Of a stretch of 64,000 nucleotides of DNA, positions 23,376 to 37,896 are shown piece by piece. How positions within the stretch are numbered: position 1 is the stretch's first letter; every line of letters begins with the position of its first letter. This DNA comes from a virus. A model generated the notes under the pieces. The model saw only the letters and a program-made list of their open reading frames with translations. It had not been told where the DNA came from and searched no databases. A program made the translations under genes and the position numbers. The DNA is taken from positions 1 to 64,000 of IMG/VR virus record IMGVR_UViG_3300023112_000008; one strand, written 5' to 3'.

Positions 23376-23431
23376 ATGGTCGGGCAAAAACGATATCAGC
23401 GGCAGCGGTAGAATGGTTGAGAGGAGGCCGG

Positions 23432-26400
23432 GTGGCAAAGAAGAAGAAGAAGCTGAAGCCGAAGTACAAGGATGAGCTATGGGATCCAACTGACCTTTGC
23501 GAGATCAGCCCAGAGGAGCTTATTGAAGCCGTAAAGGCTGAGGGTGCATATAGTTACGATCTTGAGACAACTGGGCTGTCCCCCCGCAAAGACCGAATAG
23601 ACGGCATTGCCTTCTACGTCCCCAACGAGAAGAATCCAGAGCGTAAGCCGATCCGGGCGTGGTTCCCGTTCGCTGATGGAACAATGGACCACACTGTCGA
23701 AGGTGGCAAGGTAGTCGCGCTCCGGGCGACACTAGACCAGTTCGACACAATGACTCGCCTACGTCCAATTTGGGGACTCAAAGACGTAATCGCGATCCGG
23801 CACAACGGGATCTTCGATGACGCATTCATCTACCTATCAAGCGGTCTCGATGAAAACATCATTGTCGAGAACATCATCGCCGACAGTATGCTCGCCGACT
23901 ATGTCGCCGACGAACGACGTAAGCGTTATGGATTGAAATTGCGGGTCGAACAGGTGTTCGGGCACAAGATGACCTCATATAAGGAGGCTGCGGCCGGACA
24001 GGCCTCGTTCGCGTTCGCCATGAAGAAGCCCCTTGGCGTCTACGCTTGTGACGATACGGCGTGGACCTACCGTCTCTGGCGCTGGGCCATGGAGTCGATC
24101 CGGAAACAGGATCCTCCGCGAGAGCACAAGGATCAGTGGTGTTCTCCGCTAGACGATACGCCTGGAATCTACAGCGACCTGGAGAAGGTCTTCTGGAAGA
24201 TTGAAATGAGAATCCAGCGGATCCTCATGGAGATGGAGATCACTGGCTGCTTCATCGATTGGGAGTGGTTGGTCGTCGTCCAAGAACGGCTGCAGAAGCA
24301 GAAGAAGACAATTGAGGAGGAGATCAAGGAGGAATACGGTTGGATGCCGAAGATTCGGTCGCCAAAGCAGACCTCAGACTTCCTCTACAACCCGGTCGAC
24401 AAAGGTGGCATCGGGCTCCCGACCCAAGGTGTCGATTACAACGCGGTCACGGACCAATACGCGACCGGTGACAAGGCGATTAAGCACAGGGCGAGGGAAT
24501 TCCCCGTCGTTGCAAAGATCCTCAAATACAGGTCCCTAGGCGTTGTCGAGAGCTCGTTCTGTCAGAAGCTAATCGGACTGGCCCAGGCAGAGACCAGGAT
24601 CTACGCACGCTTCAGGCAGACCGGCACGGTCATCGGTCGTCTGAGTTGTCTTTCCGGAATGTCAATGCTCTCTATACGCCTGAATGGGGCGAATCTAAGG
24701 CGTTTAGTCAAACTCTCAGAACTTGGTCAGTTTATCGGATCTGATGTTAGGATCATCACTCATAAGGGTCGTGAGCGCCGCGTGTTGAATCTGTTCAACA
24801 AGGGGCCAGGCCTGATGTTTGAGGTGGTGGCGGATGACGGCAGCAAAATCAGATGCACAAGAGACCACAAATTTTTCACCAACTCCGGGTGGCGTGCTCT
24901 CAAGGACATCAAACGAGGGGACAGACTGCTTCGAGCCGAGGTATGTGAGGCTCAGGAAGCCGATAAGAGGCAGGCGGTGGGTGCTGGATCGACCGTCGTT
25001 CTTCAAGGTGTTCGTGGACGACAAGAGGCCGGTTTACAAGAAGTCGAAAATCTATGGTCTGACGGATGGGATTGCACTCACGTGCAAGGCGATCTACGGC
25101 TGGGAGATCGATGTGTTCCGAGGCCGTTCGAGGCGACGTCCGGACTTAGACGAGATACTTCCACTTGCACCGACATGGGTGCGACGAGACAAGTGCAAAG
25201 GCTTCATACTCTCCAGGGAGTCGTTCAAGGAGATCTTCGTAGACAGCGACCTGACGCAGGAGAAGGCGAAGAAGACCTACGGGATATCTCACCAGGCCAT
25301 GATCCGGGCCGTGAAGACTTACAAGGAGTTCCACGACCCACTGGCGATGAAGCACGGACGACTCCTGAGCGCGGCCAAACGGAAGGAGGAGGCGTTCTTT
25401 CCAAAGTCGGCTTTGGTGGAGGAGATGTCAGAGGGGAGATCCCCTCAAGAGATCGCGGCCAAGTTCGGCGTGGGGGAGTCGATTATTTTGATGGACATGT
25501 ACCACCACGGAGTATCCGCGAACCCTCACGGAACCATGTCGTGGGTGAGCCGATTGACGGACAGCGAGTACTTGGCACTGGTCGCACTGAACCCACGAAT
25601 AGGAGAGCTTCCAACGGACCCGAAGATGGCTTTCACCGAGCTGGTGGAGGCCTATCAGAGGCTGATGCAACTAGCCCACTCGGTCAAGCAGAGCGGATCG
25701 ATCATGGGGGCGTTGATCGAGAGGGGGACGATCGAGAAGGATCATCTAACGTTCGCTTCAAATCGGGCGGAGATGAGGCTGTCCCGTGCGCTGACGGCGG
25801 TTGGAATCCAGCATCGGCGACTATTCCATTTCTACAAGAACTGGCAGGCCGACTTCGCCTGGATAGATCAGAAACTACTGGTCGAGGTAGATGGCGCGTG
25901 GCACCAGAAGTGTGCTGCTACCAAGGATCGGGATCAGAAGAAGACAAAGAAGGCGAAGGAGCTTGGTTACCGAGTAGTGAGGTTCACCACCAAGCAGGTC
26001 GACAAGAACCTTCCTACGGTGATTCGGGAGATCGCGTTCGAACTTGGACACGAGTTACCAGCATCACTCCAGTCAGCGTCGAAGATGTCTGGGACCTCAC
26101 CGTAGAGGGGGATCACAGTTATCTAGCTCACGGGTTTGTCAACAAAAACAGTGCGGACCCCGTCAACCTGATGAACCAGCCACGAGAAAAGGACCTGATC
26201 CGCAAGGCGTTCTGCGCTCACCTTGAAGATGACTACGACGATGATCGCAACGAGCTAACGCTGATCGATGCTGACTACGGGCAAATGGAACTGCGCATGG
26301 CAGCTCACCTCGCCCGTGAGAAGAACATGATCGAGGTCTTCTCGGCGGTTGATGGGTGTGAGGCTGGTCCCGACGGTGGTCCGTGCGAGCGATACACGTT

Positions 26401-28354
26401 CCACGAGTGCTTCGCCTGTCACACGTGCCAGCCTCCAATTGAGCTCCCTGACGGCACCATGTCCTGCATTAAGTGCGGGGCTACAGGAGGAGACATTGAA
26501 CATCAGAAGCGGTGTCGTCACGTAGATCCTCACCAGCGAACGTCAGAGGACGTAGGCGTCCCTCGAAACCCTCTCGCTAAGTGTTTAGACGGGTCAACGC
26601 TGCTTCTGGGCATGCAGCCCGGTAATGGCAAGTGTTGGATTCAACCAACGACGATTGAGGACTTGGTGGGCGATATCGAGCCCAACGAACATCGACACGT
26701 GCCTGTGACCACCGTGACGACATCTGAGGGGCTGGCCACGGCTCACACTGCGCTCAAGCGTCACAACAAGCAGACGAAGATCATCATTACTAGACGCGCT
26801 ATTGTGATTGCTACCGTCGATCATAGGTTCCAGGTGCTCGGAGAGCATGGAGCGTTAGACCCTAACACGCCGAGTTATGTGCACGTTCCTGGGCGCAGCC
26901 TTGTAGAGGCCCAAAACCTCGAAAAGGGTATGAAGCTCCCCTTCATCGATATGGGGCATGAACAATCGATGGACCCCATGTGGCACCAGACAGGTCGTCA
27001 TGGTGCGCTGGAGATCAATCCGTTCACCAAGGAGGTCCAGGAGGGAGGACCGGCCACCATCGTCCTTGATGAGAAGTGGGCCTACTTTGCAGGAATCTTC
27101 GCCGGGGACGGCTGCGCGTCCGGAAACTCGTGTTCCATCTCTCACGGACATACGCCGGAATACAAGGAGTGGCGGGACACAGTTCGAGAGGCTTGTGATG
27201 CCGTAGGGCTTCCCACCTCAATGCGAGGGGACAAGCGTCAGACAGCGATCGGCTCACGCGTCGTTCGTCGCTACCTCTCTGGTCTGAGGATCTGTGAGGA
27301 ACTCGGCAAGGGTGACCAGGGCGCGAAGATCATGCGTGTCCCGCCGTGGGTCCTCAGTGGCGGACCGAAGATGATGTGGTCCTACATCGCTGGCATCTTC
27401 GATACCGATGGAACGGTCGGTAAAAAGAAGGCTGGGACGGCCAGCTTTACTACGAAGTCCCCCGAATTCGCCGGTCAAATGGCCTTCATGCTTCGCTGGC
27501 TTGGGATGCCTGTCCTCTGCCAGCCAGGGTTCAACAAGACCTACGAGCGGTGGTACTACACGGTTCATGTTTTGGGAGAGGGTATTGAGCGGTTCGCTCG
27601 ACACTGCCCAATGCGGCTCAAGGAGAAGGTTGACCGGCTCCACGAGAGGGCCGCAACTATCAAGCGTAAGTGTGCACCTACTAACGATGAGGTGATTGCC
27701 GTCATTGATGGCGGCGAACGGACGGTCTACGACTTCCAGATCGACACGGAGGACCACCTCTACAATCAGGGCGGCTTGGTCGGTCACAATAATGCTAATT
27801 TCGGACTTTTGTACAGAATGGGTGCGCCAAAGTTCTGCGTGTATGCAGGGTTGTTTGATGAGGACGGCAAGCCCCGTGTCGGCTACGGACAAGAGTTGAT
27901 CGAGAAGTGGCACGCGGCTTACCCTGGCATCGCTGCTTGGCACGAGCGGGTTCTTCATCAGCTGTGCGTCGACAACTACATCGCCTACACCATTACGAGA
28001 CGCAGACGTCGCCTCGACATTGAGTGGAAGAAGAACGATTACCGGGCAGGAACCCAGGCCATTCAGTTCAAGGTTTCAGGCAGCTGCCAGGACCTCATCA
28101 AGCTGGCCATGATCAAGCTCTTCGAGGTGCGGAATCAAAAGGTCGCGAACACGCCTCCAGCTGAGTCGCGGCTCTGGAAGAAGTTCCGCTTCATGATCCA
28201 GGTCCACGACGAGTTGATCTTCGAAGGTCCGAAGGCGATGAAAGAGGAGCTCTGCCTCCTGGTCAAGGAGTGCATGGAGGGCGCAGCCAAGGGCATGCGT
28301 ATTCCCTTCGTCGCTGATGCGCGGGCCGGGAGGACCTGGGATGAGCTACACTAG
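23432..28354 (+). CDS. polA: Family A DNA polymerase with two inteins
   Basis: I chose GTG 23432 for its GAGGAGG; a TTG at 23417 lacks a site. The 1640-residue precursor has a 3'-5' exonuclease (YDLETTG, YACDDTAW), then polymerase motif A (DADYGQMELR), motif B (RNPLAK, then NANFGLLY) and motif C (VHDE). Two inteins interrupt it: residues encoded by 24647-26149 just before motif A and 26582-27790 inside motif B. Removing both leaves about 736 residues, normal for a phage PolA. A Cys-rich zinc-ribbon-like insert (CFACHTC, CIKCG) lies between motifs A and B. It is the replicative polymerase. Confidence 0.88.
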   Translation: MAKKKKKLKPKYKDELWDPTDLCEISPEELIEAVKAEGAYSYDLETTGLSPRKDRIDGIAFYVPNEKNPERKPIRAWFPFADGTMDHTVEGGKVVALRATLDQFDTMTRLRPIWGLKDVIAIRHNGIFDDAFIYLSSGLDENIIVENIIADSMLADYVADERRKRYGLKLRVEQVFGHKMTSYKEAAAGQASFAFAMKKPLGVYACDDTAWTYRLWRWAMESIRKQDPPREHKDQWCSPLDDTPGIYSDLEKVFWKIEMRIQRILMEMEITGCFIDWEWLVVVQERLQKQKKTIEEEIKEEYGWMPKIRSPKQTSDFLYNPVDKGGIGLPTQGVDYNAVTDQYATGDKAIKHRAREFPVVAKILKYRSLGVVESSFCQKLIGLAQAETRIYARFRQTGTVIGRLSCLSGMSMLSIRLNGANLRRLVKLSELGQFIGSDVRIITHKGRERRVLNLFNKGPGLMFEVVADDGSKIRCTRDHKFFTNSGWRALKDIKRGDRLLRAEVCEAQEADKRQAVGAGSTVVLQGVRGRQEAGLQEVENLWSDGWDCTHVQGDLRLGDRCVPRPFEATSGLRRDTSTCTDMGATRQVQRLHTLQGVVQGDLRRQRPDAGEGEEDLRDISPGHDPGREDLQGVPRPTGDEARTTPERGQTEGGGVLSKVGFGGGDVRGEIPSRDRGQVRRGGVDYFDGHVPPRSIREPSRNHVVGEPIDGQRVLGTGRTEPTNRRASNGPEDGFHRAGGGLSEADATSPLGQAERIDHGGVDREGDDREGSSNVRFKSGGDEAVPCADGGWNPASATIPFLQELAGRLRLDRSETTGRGRWRVAPEVCCYQGSGSEEDKEGEGAWLPSSEVHHQAGRQEPSYGDSGDRVRTWTRVTSITPVSVEDVWDLTVEGDHSYLAHGFVNKNSADPVNLMNQPREKDLIRKAFCAHLEDDYDDDRNELTLIDADYGQMELRMAAHLAREKNMIEVFSAVDGCEAGPDGGPCERYTFHECFACHTCQPPIELPDGTMSCIKCGATGGDIEHQKRCRHVDPHQRTSEDVGVPRNPLAKCLDGSTLLLGMQPGNGKCWIQPTTIEDLVGDIEPNEHRHVPVTTVTTSEGLATAHTALKRHNKQTKIIITRRAIVIATVDHRFQVLGEHGALDPNTPSYVHVPGRSLVEAQNLEKGMKLPFIDMGHEQSMDPMWHQTGRHGALEINPFTKEVQEGGPATIVLDEKWAYFAGIFAGDGCASGNSCSISHGHTPEYKEWRDTVREACDAVGLPTSMRGDKRQTAIGSRVVRRYLSGLRICEELGKGDQGAKIMRVPPWVLSGGPKMMWSYIAGIFDTDGTVGKKKAGTASFTTKSPEFAGQMAFMLRWLGMPVLCQPGFNKTYERWYYTVHVLGEGIERFARHCPMRLKEKVDRLHERAATIKRKCAPTNDEVIAVIDGGERTVYDFQIDTEDHLYNQGGLVGHNNANFGLLYRMGAPKFCVYAGLFDEDGKPRVGYGQELIEKWHAAYPGIAAWHERVLHQLCVDNYIAYTITRRRRRLDIEWKKNDYRAGTQAIQFKVSGSCQDLIKLAMIKLFEVRNQKVANTPPAESRLWKKFRFMIQVHDELIFEGPKAMKEELCLLVKECMEGAAKGMRIPFVADARAGRTWDELH
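24647..26149 (+). mobile_element. Intein 1 in the polymerase, with an out-of-frame endonuclease gene inside
   Basis: The 501-residue intein runs from Cys (block A, CLSGMSMLSI) to Asn before Ser. It joins GRLS to SADPVNLMNQ, the usual PolA sequence. Block B is CTRDHKFF; block F is VWDLTVEGDHSYLAHG; the end is VNKN, with Lys where penultimate His is typical. Between the splicing blocks the intein frame reads about 380 codons of Arg/Gly/Glu-rich sequence without domain character. The +1 frame there encodes a convincing endonuclease. The intein frame has no stop. Confidence 0.85.
24945..26105 (+). CDS. Vsr-like (EDxHD-type) homing endonuclease nested out of frame in intein 1
   Basis: This gene uses the +1 frame relative to the polymerase. 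The start is probably GTG 24945 (after CCGAGG) or GTG 24981 (after AAGAGG); open frame extends to 24819. The product (about 386 residues) has two or three helix-turn-helix repeats (SFFKVFVDDKRPVYKKSKIY, SFKEIFVDSDLTQEKAKKTY) and a C-terminal nuclease core: Glu in AEMRLSRAL, Asp in ADFAW, EVDGAWHQK and Asp in TKDRDQKK. This order fits the Vsr-like EDxHD homing nucleases linked to split-intein genes. It stops just inside the C-terminal splicing block. Confidence 0.8.
   Translation: MRLRKPIRGRRWVLDRPSFFKVFVDDKRPVYKKSKIYGLTDGIALTCKAIYGWEIDVFRGRSRRRPDLDEILPLAPTWVRRDKCKGFILSRESFKEIFVDSDLTQEKAKKTYGISHQAMIRAVKTYKEFHDPLAMKHGRLLSAAKRKEEAFFPKSALVEEMSEGRSPQEIAAKFGVGESIILMDMYHHGVSANPHGTMSWVSRLTDSEYLALVALNPRIGELPTDPKMAFTELVEAYQRLMQLAHSVKQSGSIMGALIERGTIEKDHLTFASNRAEMRLSRALTAVGIQHRRLFHFYKNWQADFAWIDQKLLVEVDGAWHQKCAATKDRDQKKTKKAKELGYRVVRFTTKQVDKNLPTVIREIAFELGHELPASLQSASKMSGTSP
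26582..27790 (+). mobile_element. Intein 2 in the polymerase, LAGLIDADG type
   Basis: The 403-residue intein runs from Cys (CLDGSTLLLG) to Asn (GLVGHN) and sits inside polymerase motif B (RNPLAK joined to NANFG). Block B is ATVDHRF. Two LAGLIDADG motifs (YFAGIFAGDG and YIAGIFDTDG) mark an in-frame homing endonuclease. The residue after the splice point is Asn, not Cys, Ser or Thr, which normal splicing needs; see findings. Confidence 0.88.
28328..28353 (+). repeat. Direct repeat, copy 1, at the 3' end of the polymerase gene
   Basis: The last 26 bp of the polymerase gene (coding for RTWDELH, up to the first two bases of its stop) recur exactly at 29340-29365, beyond the HNH gene. Weaker similarity continues to about 28386. 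Confidence 0.9.
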
Positions 28355-34846: not shown

Positions 34847-35575
34847 ATGGGCCTTCTCTCTGAGATGCAGATCGAAACAGCCTCTGGACCGGTCCAAATC
34901 GGCGTTTTAGCCAATAAGACTGTCCTAAACCCAGATTTTTCTGTGGTGGTGCTGACGTGGACTGGTTCACGCCTCTTCGTAACTGAGGCGTTTGACTTCC
35001 GGTCAATCGGCGAACAACAGATTTTCGATGTTGAACTTGATGATGGCTCACTCGTTAAAGTGTCCCCCTCCTCACAGTTCATTCTCAAAAATGGCTCCAC
35101 GAAGATGCCCCCGGAGCTGAGTCCTGGGGATTCGCTTCTGCCGCTTTACTTAGCCAAAAACGCGAACGGCTATCCGACCTATCAGATCCCAGGACACGCT
35201 GTAAAAAAGAAAATATCTAGACTTATGGCGGAATGGGTGCTTGGCCATGCCCTAGAAAAGGGCACCTACGTTGAGCACATCGATGGGAACAGAGAAAACT
35301 ATCACCCAGATAATCTCCGGATATACTTCGACGCACAGAAGGCCAAGAGGTCCCACAAGAACATCGCTGTCAAGACGGTAGGCGCAGCGGACGCGCTCTT
35401 CAACGAGTGTGCTGCTGCCAGCCCATTGATGGCTGAAATCGTCAAACCAAAGAAGAAGACCAACCACAAGGTGGTGCGATCTACGCCTGGTCGGCTAGAC
35501 GAAGTTTTTACCGCATCTGTCCGAACTATGGGCTCGTTGTCCATATCCGGTGTGTTCCTGGACCTCCCGGCCTGA
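34847..35575 (+). CDS. Hint-like domain fused to an HNH nuclease, free-standing
   Basis: The first 110 residues follow the Hint (intein) fold pattern (DVELDDGSLVKVSPSSQFIL, LSPGDSLLPLY) but lack the N-terminal Cys and have SPSSQ where an active block B reads T-x-x-H, so splicing is not expected. An HNH core follows (VEHIDGNRENYHPDNLRI). The C-terminal 90 residues are basic then beta-like. It lies 41 bp before the portal gene, which holds an endonuclease-free mini-intein, so it may be the trans-acting homing enzyme for that site. Confidence 0.65.
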   Translation: MGLLSEMQIETASGPVQIGVLANKTVLNPDFSVVVLTWTGSRLFVTEAFDFRSIGEQQIFDVELDDGSLVKVSPSSQFILKNGSTKMPPELSPGDSLLPLYLAKNANGYPTYQIPGHAVKKKISRLMAEWVLGHALEKGTYVEHIDGNRENYHPDNLRIYFDAQKAKRSHKNIAVKTVGAADALFNECAAASPLMAEIVKPKKKTNHKVVRSTPGRLDEVFTASVRTMGSLSISGVFLDLPA

Positions 35576-35616: not shown

Positions 35617-37896
35617 ATGGCACTTCGCGACGATGCGCTAAACTACCTGCGCCAGGTATTCGGCCGTGAACGCGCCGAGCGTGATCGGGCTGAATCTCCC
35701 TCGGCCGAGGCCGAGAAGCACATCCCGTCATCCATCTTCTCGGTATGGGGCCGAGAAGACGTCGGCGGACTACTCAGCGTCTCGCAGAACCTGATGGACA
35801 GGTATGCAGATTATGAGCAGATGGATGATTATCCGGACATCAACTGTCTCACTGCAGATACTACGATTTACGTGGTTGAAGACTCCATTATCAAGCCCAC
35901 TAGGATCCACGACCTAGCTGCTCACGGCGGTGGCCCCAAGATCCTGGCCTACGACACAGAGAAGGACAAGCTCGTCGTAGTGGCGTCTGAGAATCCTCGC
36001 ATTTCTGGCGATAAGCAGGAGGTGGTTGAGGTCGGGTTTAGCAATGGTGAGAAAATCAAGTGCACCCCTGGGCACAAGTTCCTCACGGTCGAGCACGATT
36101 ACATCAATGCCTCTGATCTAGTCGAGGGAACGGTTGTGGTCTCTTGTTGGTCTGGGTTTGACCCAACAGGAATGACCGCCTTTCTGCACTCAACATCAGG
36201 CCGATTGAAGGTGACCCAGGCCGCGATTCCGGCTGGGGTCGAAGACGTCTACGACGTCACAACTAAGACCCACAACTTCATCGCTAATGGGATTGTTGTC
36301 CATAACAGCGCCCACCACTACTTCACAAACGATGCGACCCAGCCGGATATTGACACCGGAAAAACCGTTTGGGTCCATTCTAGCGACGAAGCTATCAAGA
36401 GCATGTCGGACGTGCTGCTCAACAAGCGGCTACGAATTGAAGACGATATCTGGTCCATGGTCTACACGACCGTGAAGATGGGCAATAACTACGAGGAGGT
36501 GCTGATCACTGATAACGGCGTTGTCGGCCTCAACTCTCTTCCCTGCCCCACCATGCGCCGTGTCGAGCAGTCCAATGGCTCGATCATTGGTTACGTCCAG
36601 GACATCACTGGGAAGTTCACGCAGGACGCCTCGGACCTTCGCGGGATGCTGGCCGGTCAGGCTAAGGTCCCGGACCACGTCGCCCTGTTCGAGGAGTGGC
36701 AAGTCCTACATACGCGCCTTCGTGGCACGGCCCGCAGAACTCCATACGGGTTCGGTGTGGCTGATGGAGCTCGCTGGATCTGGAAGAGACTGGTTCTTCT
36801 CGAAGACTCGATGCTCATCTACAAGCTGACCCGAGCTCCAGCCCGGTTCGCCTTCTACATCGACGTCACCGATATTCCATCTGACAAGGTGGAGTCCTTC
36901 CTACGCAAAGCCAAGCAAGACCTGCGGAAGCAGAAACTTGTTAACCCGAGGACCCAGCGCCTCGACATGCGTATGAATCCGATGGACAACCTTCAGGACT
37001 TCTTCATCGCGGTCCGCGAAAATCGCGAGCTAGCCCGTGTAGAGGTTCTCCAAGGCCCTGACTATCAGGCGACCGAGGATGTGGAGTACTTCCAGCGGAA
37101 GCTACACGGCGTCCTGAAGATCCCCAGGAACTATCTAGGGCAAGACGACGGCATCCCAGCCCGATCGATCCTCTCTTACGAGGATGTGCGGTCCGCACGC
37201 GTCACGATGGGAATCCAGCGCGAGGTCAGGAACAGCATTCGTCGTCTGATTCAGATCGATCTTGCGGCCCGAGGGATCAACCCCTTCAGGCAAGACCTTC
37301 AGGTGATGATGACGGTCCCGTCCGGGATCTATGAGCTGGCGCACAACGAGATCAAGAACGCGAGAGCTGACTTCGCAACGCGAGTCCAGCCGTTTGTCTC
37401 AATGCGCTATATCCAGGAGAAGATTCTCAAACTGACCGGCGATCAGATAGAGCGGATCGAGAAGGAGCGGGAAGAGGATCAAAAGAAGGAAGCTGCTCAG
37501 CAACAGGCTATGGGCGGAGGTGATGATGGCGGTGGTGGCGGCGCTCCTGCTGCTGATGGTTCTCCGCCAGATGACGCTCCAATGCACCCAGGAAACGCTG
37601 AGATCGGCCCACCACCGGGCTCTGGGGGTCGACCAGACAGTAAGTCGGAGTGGAAGTCTTACGATAGGGCGCGGCGCATTGAGGAAAAACGTGATCGCAT
37701 GTCCCGGCAGCGTGATCAAGAGATTCAAGACACAATGCACAAGGTCATTGTCGGTAATAAGCAGATGGCCGCACAGCTCGCCCATCAACAGCAATTCTTC
37801 CGCGAGTTCAAGCACGCCGCATTCTCCCGGAACGGGAACGGCGGTCTGATCTCAGCCCCTCAGGGCGGCGGTCATCGACGACGTCGCATTAAGTGA
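35617..37896 (+). CDS. Portal protein with a mini-intein
   Basis: The 759-residue precursor resembles myovirus portals: the early motif MDDYPDIN joined to SAHHYFTNDATQ, then a stem and crown region with RAPARFAFYIDV and an Arg-rich C-terminus. A 154-residue intein (35845-36306) splits the conserved motif; the mature chain would be about 605 residues. The portal is the dodecameric DNA gate of the head. The C-terminal part is Gly/Pro-rich and charged. GTGA overlap with the next gene. Confidence 0.82.
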   Translation: MALRDDALNYLRQVFGRERAERDRAESPSAEAEKHIPSSIFSVWGREDVGGLLSVSQNLMDRYADYEQMDDYPDINCLTADTTIYVVEDSIIKPTRIHDLAAHGGGPKILAYDTEKDKLVVVASENPRISGDKQEVVEVGFSNGEKIKCTPGHKFLTVEHDYINASDLVEGTVVVSCWSGFDPTGMTAFLHSTSGRLKVTQAAIPAGVEDVYDVTTKTHNFIANGIVVHNSAHHYFTNDATQPDIDTGKTVWVHSSDEAIKSMSDVLLNKRLRIEDDIWSMVYTTVKMGNNYEEVLITDNGVVGLNSLPCPTMRRVEQSNGSIIGYVQDITGKFTQDASDLRGMLAGQAKVPDHVALFEEWQVLHTRLRGTARRTPYGFGVADGARWIWKRLVLLEDSMLIYKLTRAPARFAFYIDVTDIPSDKVESFLRKAKQDLRKQKLVNPRTQRLDMRMNPMDNLQDFFIAVRENRELARVEVLQGPDYQATEDVEYFQRKLHGVLKIPRNYLGQDDGIPARSILSYEDVRSARVTMGIQREVRNSIRRLIQIDLAARGINPFRQDLQVMMTVPSGIYELAHNEIKNARADFATRVQPFVSMRYIQEKILKLTGDQIERIEKEREEDQKKEAAQQQAMGGGDDGGGGGAPAADGSPPDDAPMHPGNAEIGPPPGSGGRPDSKSEWKSYDRARRIEEKRDRMSRQRDQEIQDTMHKVIVGNKQMAAQLAHQQQFFREFKHAAFSRNGNGGLISAPQGGGHRRRRIK
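35845..36306 (+). mobile_element. Mini-intein in the portal protein
   Basis: The 154-residue element runs from Cys (CLTADTTIYV) to Asn (NGIVVHN) before Ser, with block B KCTPGHKFL and block F VYDVTTKTHNFIANG. All splicing residues are canonical. There is no endonuclease domain, so it is either degenerate or mobilised in trans, perhaps by the neighbouring Hint-HNH protein. Confidence 0.9.

Follow-up and report, generated by a model that had tools for sequence, protein, structure and literature searches.

Dassa et al. 2009 reportedly described fractured genes that carry split inteins, with a free-standing nuclease of the EDxHD type between the halves. In ShiLan, a methylase gene carries an out-of-frame HNH endonuclease insertion in which no element for intein or intron splicing could be detected, and the inserted part is presumed to remain in the protein (PMC11855218). 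A phage DNA polymerase gene that lacks the intron is nicked by I-PfoP3I, an intron-borne HNH enzyme (PMC3428280). Here we analysed a 64,000-nucleotide stretch of viral DNA (the window; positions 1 to 64,000 of the 134,749-base IMG/VR virus record IMGVR_UViG_3300023112_000008), in which the gene for a family-A DNA polymerase (PolA) encodes two inteins. The first of these, intein 1, is very probably mobile and cis-splicing, with a homing endonuclease encoded not by an in-frame domain but by a gene of its own that overprints the intein in the +1 frame. This reading draws on the architecture of the locus, stop avoidance in the polymerase frame, selection on the nuclease frame, recurrence in two nuclease families and signatures of mobility.

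An initial annotation of the window had placed an intein at 24647-26149 with its splicing blocks in the polymerase frame, and the span proved exact. The boundaries read GRLS/C...VNKN/SADP and enclose 501 codons, and the polymerase frame matches the Pfam Intein_splicing family (7.6e-16) together with the N- and C-terminal intein models TIGR01445 and TIGR01443. From these motifs we infer that intein 1 splices in cis. At the junction, neither a stop nor a classical slippery site for programmed frameshifting was seen in the polymerase frame. Two adjacent C-block codons of the intein, GTA-GAG (Val-Glu), conceal the TAG stop of the nested nuclease gene. The features of the locus are as follows.

23417..28354, + strand: PolA family-A DNA polymerase precursor with two inteins, a single open frame of 1645 residues (DNA_pol_A, E 9.6e-50)
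24647..26149, + strand: intein 1, in the polymerase frame, 501 residues, inserted at GRLS/SADP, with Cys1, a TRDH block B, terminal Asn and +1 Ser
24647..24937, + strand: IntN, the N-terminal splicing block, ~97 residues, 58% identical in the related loci L002 and L003 and 48% in the mini-intein of L010
24894..26105, + strand: nested nuclease gene, +1 frame, 403 residues, with a GTG start kept in four of four family members and a frame open from 24819
24894..24943, + strand: dual-coding zone of the IntN end (GWRALKDI..GDRLLRAE) and the nuclease start (VLSRTS..FEPRYVRL)
24944..26050, + strand: nuclease body, where the polymerase frame is a stop-free, low-complexity linker rich in Arg, Gly and Glu
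24945..24947, + strand: alternative nuclease start, an invariant GTG
25800..26042, + strand: DUF559 / I-Bth0305I-like catalytic domain (QADF...VEVDG..H...RD), residues 328-408 of the open reading frame (ORF) from 24819
26051..26149, + strand: IntC, the C-terminal splicing block RVTSITPVSVEDVWDLTVEGDHSYLAHGFVNKN
26582..27790, + strand: intein 2 of PolA, 403 residues, with a LAGLIDADG domain in frame, an ordinary intein that serves as the contrast case

Eleven loci with such a nested gene were compared: the window, L002, L003 and L023, which form the window family, and L044, L100, L101, L102, L104, L105 and L114, which form a second family. The polymerase frame contains no stop over the nested gene in any of the 11, whereas about 73 stops are expected under a conservative within-gene permutation. 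In the phase used, a host stop arises solely where a T-ending nuclease codon precedes AA, AG or GA. At these positions T-ending codons are absent (0/722), compared with 330/2145 elsewhere in the same 11 genes (P 4e-45, from counts pooled over loci that are related and so not fully independent). For the window gene, the initial claim that the polymerase frame is open over the nested gene was confirmed: it has 0 stops in 388 codons, far below the 19.7 +/- 3.8 expected from phage codon usage, and when synonymous codons were permuted within the gene 11.4 stops were expected and 0 of 5000 permutations were stop-free. The other forward shadow frame of the nuclease region contains 26 stops, and open same-phase runs in the remaining window genes never exceed 119 codons.

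As controls we used seven HNH relatives located within interrupted phage DNA polymerase genes, whose introns are annotated or inferred (joined exons are given in the annotation of PhAPEC7 and PS3, and a group I intron is reported for phiL7; PMC3428280). Each contains 7-25 stops in the used phase, with T before AA, AG or GA at 127 of 359 junctions, these genes being mostly less GC-rich than the nested ones and the two at 54% GC having 7 and 11 stops. Within-gene shuffling alone can flag shadow ORFs, as a scan of all fetched loci showed, and the case made here therefore relies on homology, on bias by codon position and on these interrupted-polymerase controls. Changing T to C at a stop-making position is always silent for the nuclease in the used phase, and dynamic programming showed that each of the 11 nuclease proteins can be recoded silently so that no host stop is left; in the other phase, at least one host stop is unavoidable for 10 of the 11. 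This silent removability of stops may explain why both families occupy the same phase.

Conservation of the +1 frame as protein was checked by comparing the proportions of nonsynonymous (pN) and synonymous (pS) differences. In the nuclease frame, pN is 0.17-0.30 against a pS of 0.48-0.66 and lies well below pS in every pair, which shows the frame to be conserved as protein. In the host frame pN is greater than pS, indicating that only openness is kept there. Purifying selection acts on the nuclease frame; all that is conserved of the polymerase frame is its lack of stops. Within IntN, silent divergence is about 0.36 (110/299) before the GTG at 24894 and 0.17 (13/75) after it, a drop that marks the dual-coding zone and supports a start at this GTG or earlier. 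The nuclease had been thought to start where the N-block ends; instead it overlaps that block by ~50 nucleotides, the conserved GTG 24894 lying inside the region that encodes GWRALKD. Separate translational control of the nuclease had also been proposed, and this part is well supported for the second family alone, whose starts (ATG, GTG or TTG, then S[VI]S[KR]xW) are preceded by Shine-Dalgarno-like sites with a free energy (dG) of -5.8 to -9.8 versus a random mean of -3.2; in the window gene the corresponding signal is weak.

The nuclease ORF of the window scores above the Pfam gathering threshold for DUF559 (PF04480; 45.8 bits against a cut-off of 20.6, E 6e-12). Weaker sequence matches of the catalytic region are to 3hrl and to the I-Bth0305I domain 3r3p (hmmsearch E 0.048), and 3r3p is also the top Foldseek match (probability 0.89, E 0.31, with a query model of only 57 in predicted local distance difference test, pLDDT). 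Three three-helix, helix-turn-helix-like repeats are predicted ahead of the catalytic core. The initial Vsr/EDxHD-like call agrees with these matches, which are consistent with a DUF559-type nuclease that is EDxHD-like rather than a proven EDxHD member. No relatives of the DUF559-family nuclease were found among sequenced phages or in a bacterial genome scan, the latter yielding one contig with an HNH-family nuclease. In the polymerase frame, AlphaFold modelled IntN as beta-rich (pLDDT 56-76) and the linker as disordered (pLDDT about 25).

Searching viral contigs with the nuclease recovered L002 (58% nuclease identity) and L003 (57%), and a search with the PolA C-extein recovered L023, whose nuclease is 73% identical to that of the window. 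All three carry the same intein at the same PolA site, with the nuclease in the +1 frame. Homologues with a broken polymerase frame were looked for here, and these relatives, at 57-73% nuclease identity, all keep it open. By contrast with L003, to whose exteins its own are 84-93% identical, L010 holds a 134-residue mini-intein of the window family without the nuclease; a nuclease profile search of its 275-kb contig gave no match. The intein site is vacant in L016, L021 and L022. Between the window and L002, the exteins are 27% identical, compared with 58-61% for the intein blocks and 58% for the nuclease, as expected of a mobile element. This identity contrast, together with the empty and mini-intein alleles, suggests indirectly that the nuclease may have a homing function.

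Some further variation was seen at these sites. A stretch of ~90 nucleotides in IntN is near-identical between L003 and L010 while the remaining intein has diverged, which suggests recombination between inteins. The PolA gene of L023 (L023:1268-8128), on a 203-kb phage contig, has at least four inteins in one gene of more than 2287 codons. L017 and L020 have an intein of another family one codon upstream (GRL/C...N/SSADP), with an in-frame HNH-like motif in L017, which makes this PolA motif a hot spot for several elements.

The second family came to light in L044, where a PolA intein at essentially the window site has a low-complexity linker that encodes an HNH_3 endonuclease in the +1 frame (PF13392, E 1e-12), unrelated to the DUF559 nuclease. 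A search with this nuclease, made irrespective of host frame, returned L100, L101, L102, L104, L105 and L114; L102 is near-identical to L103, and the family comprises seven distinct loci including L044. All seven genes lie inside a PolA intein and share the phase of the window gene, with the host frame open for 874-1208 codons. The nested ORFs start at intein residue 80-81 in the HNH family and at about 83 in the window family (from coordinates). Their stops sit in the intein C block, most commonly as the TAG of a GTA-GAG Val-Glu pair. Cys1, the block B His, the terminal Asn and a +1 Ser or Cys are present in the inteins of all 11 nested loci, the block B Thr in 10 (all except L100) and the penultimate His in 10 (all except the window). 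HNH relatives also interrupt polA a few codons from the intein site (GRLSSSNPNL). Besides the two families, other nested ORFs across all fetched loci were low-complexity shadow ORFs only.

The same shift in 11 loci on separate contigs excludes a sequencing frameshift near the junctions. The core of the initial annotation, an out-of-frame endonuclease in a cis-splicing intein whose host frame is kept readable by selection, passed each test that could be run. Its suggestion of a transient intermediate between mini, split and fused states was not supported, the layout being common to divergent loci and to two unrelated nuclease families; no split or in-frame-fused form of either nuclease family was found.

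We propose that a ribosome in the PolA frame would produce a precursor of ~1640 residues, in which two splicing blocks flank a meaningless linker of ~370 residues. The blocks would fold together across this linker in the fashion of a mini-intein and then splice, restoring PolA. From the same mRNA, initiation at an internal GTG (24894 or 24945) would give a free nuclease of ~400 residues, in which the three predicted helix-turn-helix-like repeats would be followed by the DUF559/EDxHD-like core. The nuclease would cut intein-free polA at GRLS/S, and repair would copy in the intein along with its nested gene. Selection would purge every stop from the polymerase frame, because a truncated polymerase would be lost.

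Several observations weigh against this account, beginning with the incomplete independence of the pooled loci. In the window intein Lys stands at the penultimate position (VNKN), which is His in the four relatives. The AlphaFold model of the intein has IntN folded and IntC not, probably because the alignment is shallow, and the nuclease model is itself of moderate quality (pLDDT 57, shallow alignments). The Shine-Dalgarno-like sequence ahead of the window-family GTG is weak, at a dG of -3.0 to -4.1 versus a random mean of -3.2. The translation start and the cleavage specificity are deduced, as are splicing, nuclease translation and cleavage themselves.

The polymerase frame might be a chance shadow ORF held open by GC-rich codon usage, and in the most GC-rich contig, L003, same-phase runs do reach 232 codons and the within-gene shuffle gives P of only 0.05-0.06. 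Family members down to 50% GC are, however, equally open, and polymerase-borne HNH relatives at 54% GC have 7-11 stops. The pooled codon-junction test rejects chance, to which we attach a negligible probability. Alternatively, this might be a true split gene, with IntN and IntC as separate polypeptides that splice in trans and a free-standing nuclease gene between them; an I-Bth0305I/EDxHD-like nuclease between intein halves is indeed the order said to occur in fractured genes. Yet no stop ends the N half or parts the halves at any of the 11 loci, and stop avoidance would be needless in a split gene. With the host frame open throughout, a fractured gene with a split intein was rejected as very improbable.

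The nuclease ORF might instead be carried by a group I RNA intron, the intein motifs being incidental, since phage DNA polymerase genes have annotated introns that carry HNH relatives of the second family (PMC3428280). Against this, the polymerase frame is recognised by intein models to either side of the nuclease, and interrupted polymerase genes end inside the 5' exon or soon beyond it, whereas the polymerase frame of the nested loci stays open. No Rfam family was detected at the PolA intein in the window, L002, L003, L023, L044 or L101, a weak test given that Rfam also missed the annotated introns of L115 and L116; an intron, which we consider extremely unlikely, is therefore rejected mainly on the intein blocks. 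A last alternative concerns origin and leaves the present working unchanged: the nuclease may have begun as an in-frame fusion, later shifted to +1 by indels near the two junctions that offset each other. In favour of this, intein endonucleases are mostly encoded as in-frame domains, and in both families the nested ORF begins near intein residue 80, close to the usual region of endonuclease insertion. Neither nuclease turned up in an in-frame form, however, and HNH-family relatives are found as ORFs of their own within interrupted DNA polymerase genes. We regard an in-frame origin as fairly unlikely.

Elsewhere in the window, the gene for the portal protein (35617-37896; Portal_T4, E 1e-48) holds a mini-intein (Intein_splicing, E 5e-13). 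Just upstream, a free ORF (34847-35575) combines a block-B-like N-terminal intein half with an HNH_3 match (E 9e-6) and is possibly a free-standing or relict Hint-HNH element. With a further mini-intein in a terminase-like protein (L014, ~98448 of the same phage genome), the 135-kb record has at least four inteins.

Returning to the overprinted nuclease gene, we think it fairly likely that such inteins form a recurrent class, in which unrelated nucleases (at least DUF559/EDxHD-like and HNH_3) settled separately in PolA inteins in the same phase, with silent T-to-C changes alone keeping the host frame open. The nuclease would be freed from the precursor, yet its indels would also break an important replication gene, slowing decay of the homing gene. 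The locus shows how an endonuclease gene can live in an intein without in-frame fusion, which adds a state of overlapping genes to those already known (mini, fused and split), and an unstructured insert of ~370 residues is apparently tolerated by the intein. It also offers an example from nature of a mobile gene intertwined with a gene for replication. Stop avoidance leaves a simple, quantitative signature that suits genome-wide scans and can find nucleases missed by domain searches of host proteins.

Inteins with an in-frame nested endonuclease, such as PI-SceI and PolA intein 2, likewise have blocks that flank an endonuclease between blocks B and F, and a homing-type distribution. Here, however, the nuclease lies in another frame, +1 in all 11 loci, and would be a separate protein outside the precursor. 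Fractured genes share a nuclease of the I-Bth0305I-like fold class between intein halves; they differ in that the host gene here is unbroken, with a cis- rather than trans-splicing arrangement and strong stop avoidance. The group I introns of PS3, PhAPEC7 and phiL7 carry a homologous HNH_3 nuclease in the same polymerase region (GRLSS.PNL), but depend on RNA splicing and have a host phase full of stops within the nuclease ORF. Our literature search, which did not extend to preprint 10.1101/2025.01.02.630785 on non-canonical actinophage inteins, found no report of a cis-splicing intein that houses a homing gene out of frame. That preprint is cited for overlapping reading frames of actinobacteriophages (PMC11855218), may deal with inteins like these and is possible prior art. 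Like the PolA loci, the ShiLan insertion has an out-of-frame ORF for a mobile endonuclease, a stop-free host frame and a GTG start. It differs in host gene, and one of the two nuclease families here is DUF559/EDxHD-like. An insertion of the ShiLan type would have no splicing domains, whereas the PolA loci combine the out-of-frame ORF and open host frame with canonical intein blocks that flank the nested gene, so that the linker can be removed. Of the known systems, ShiLan is the closest precedent.
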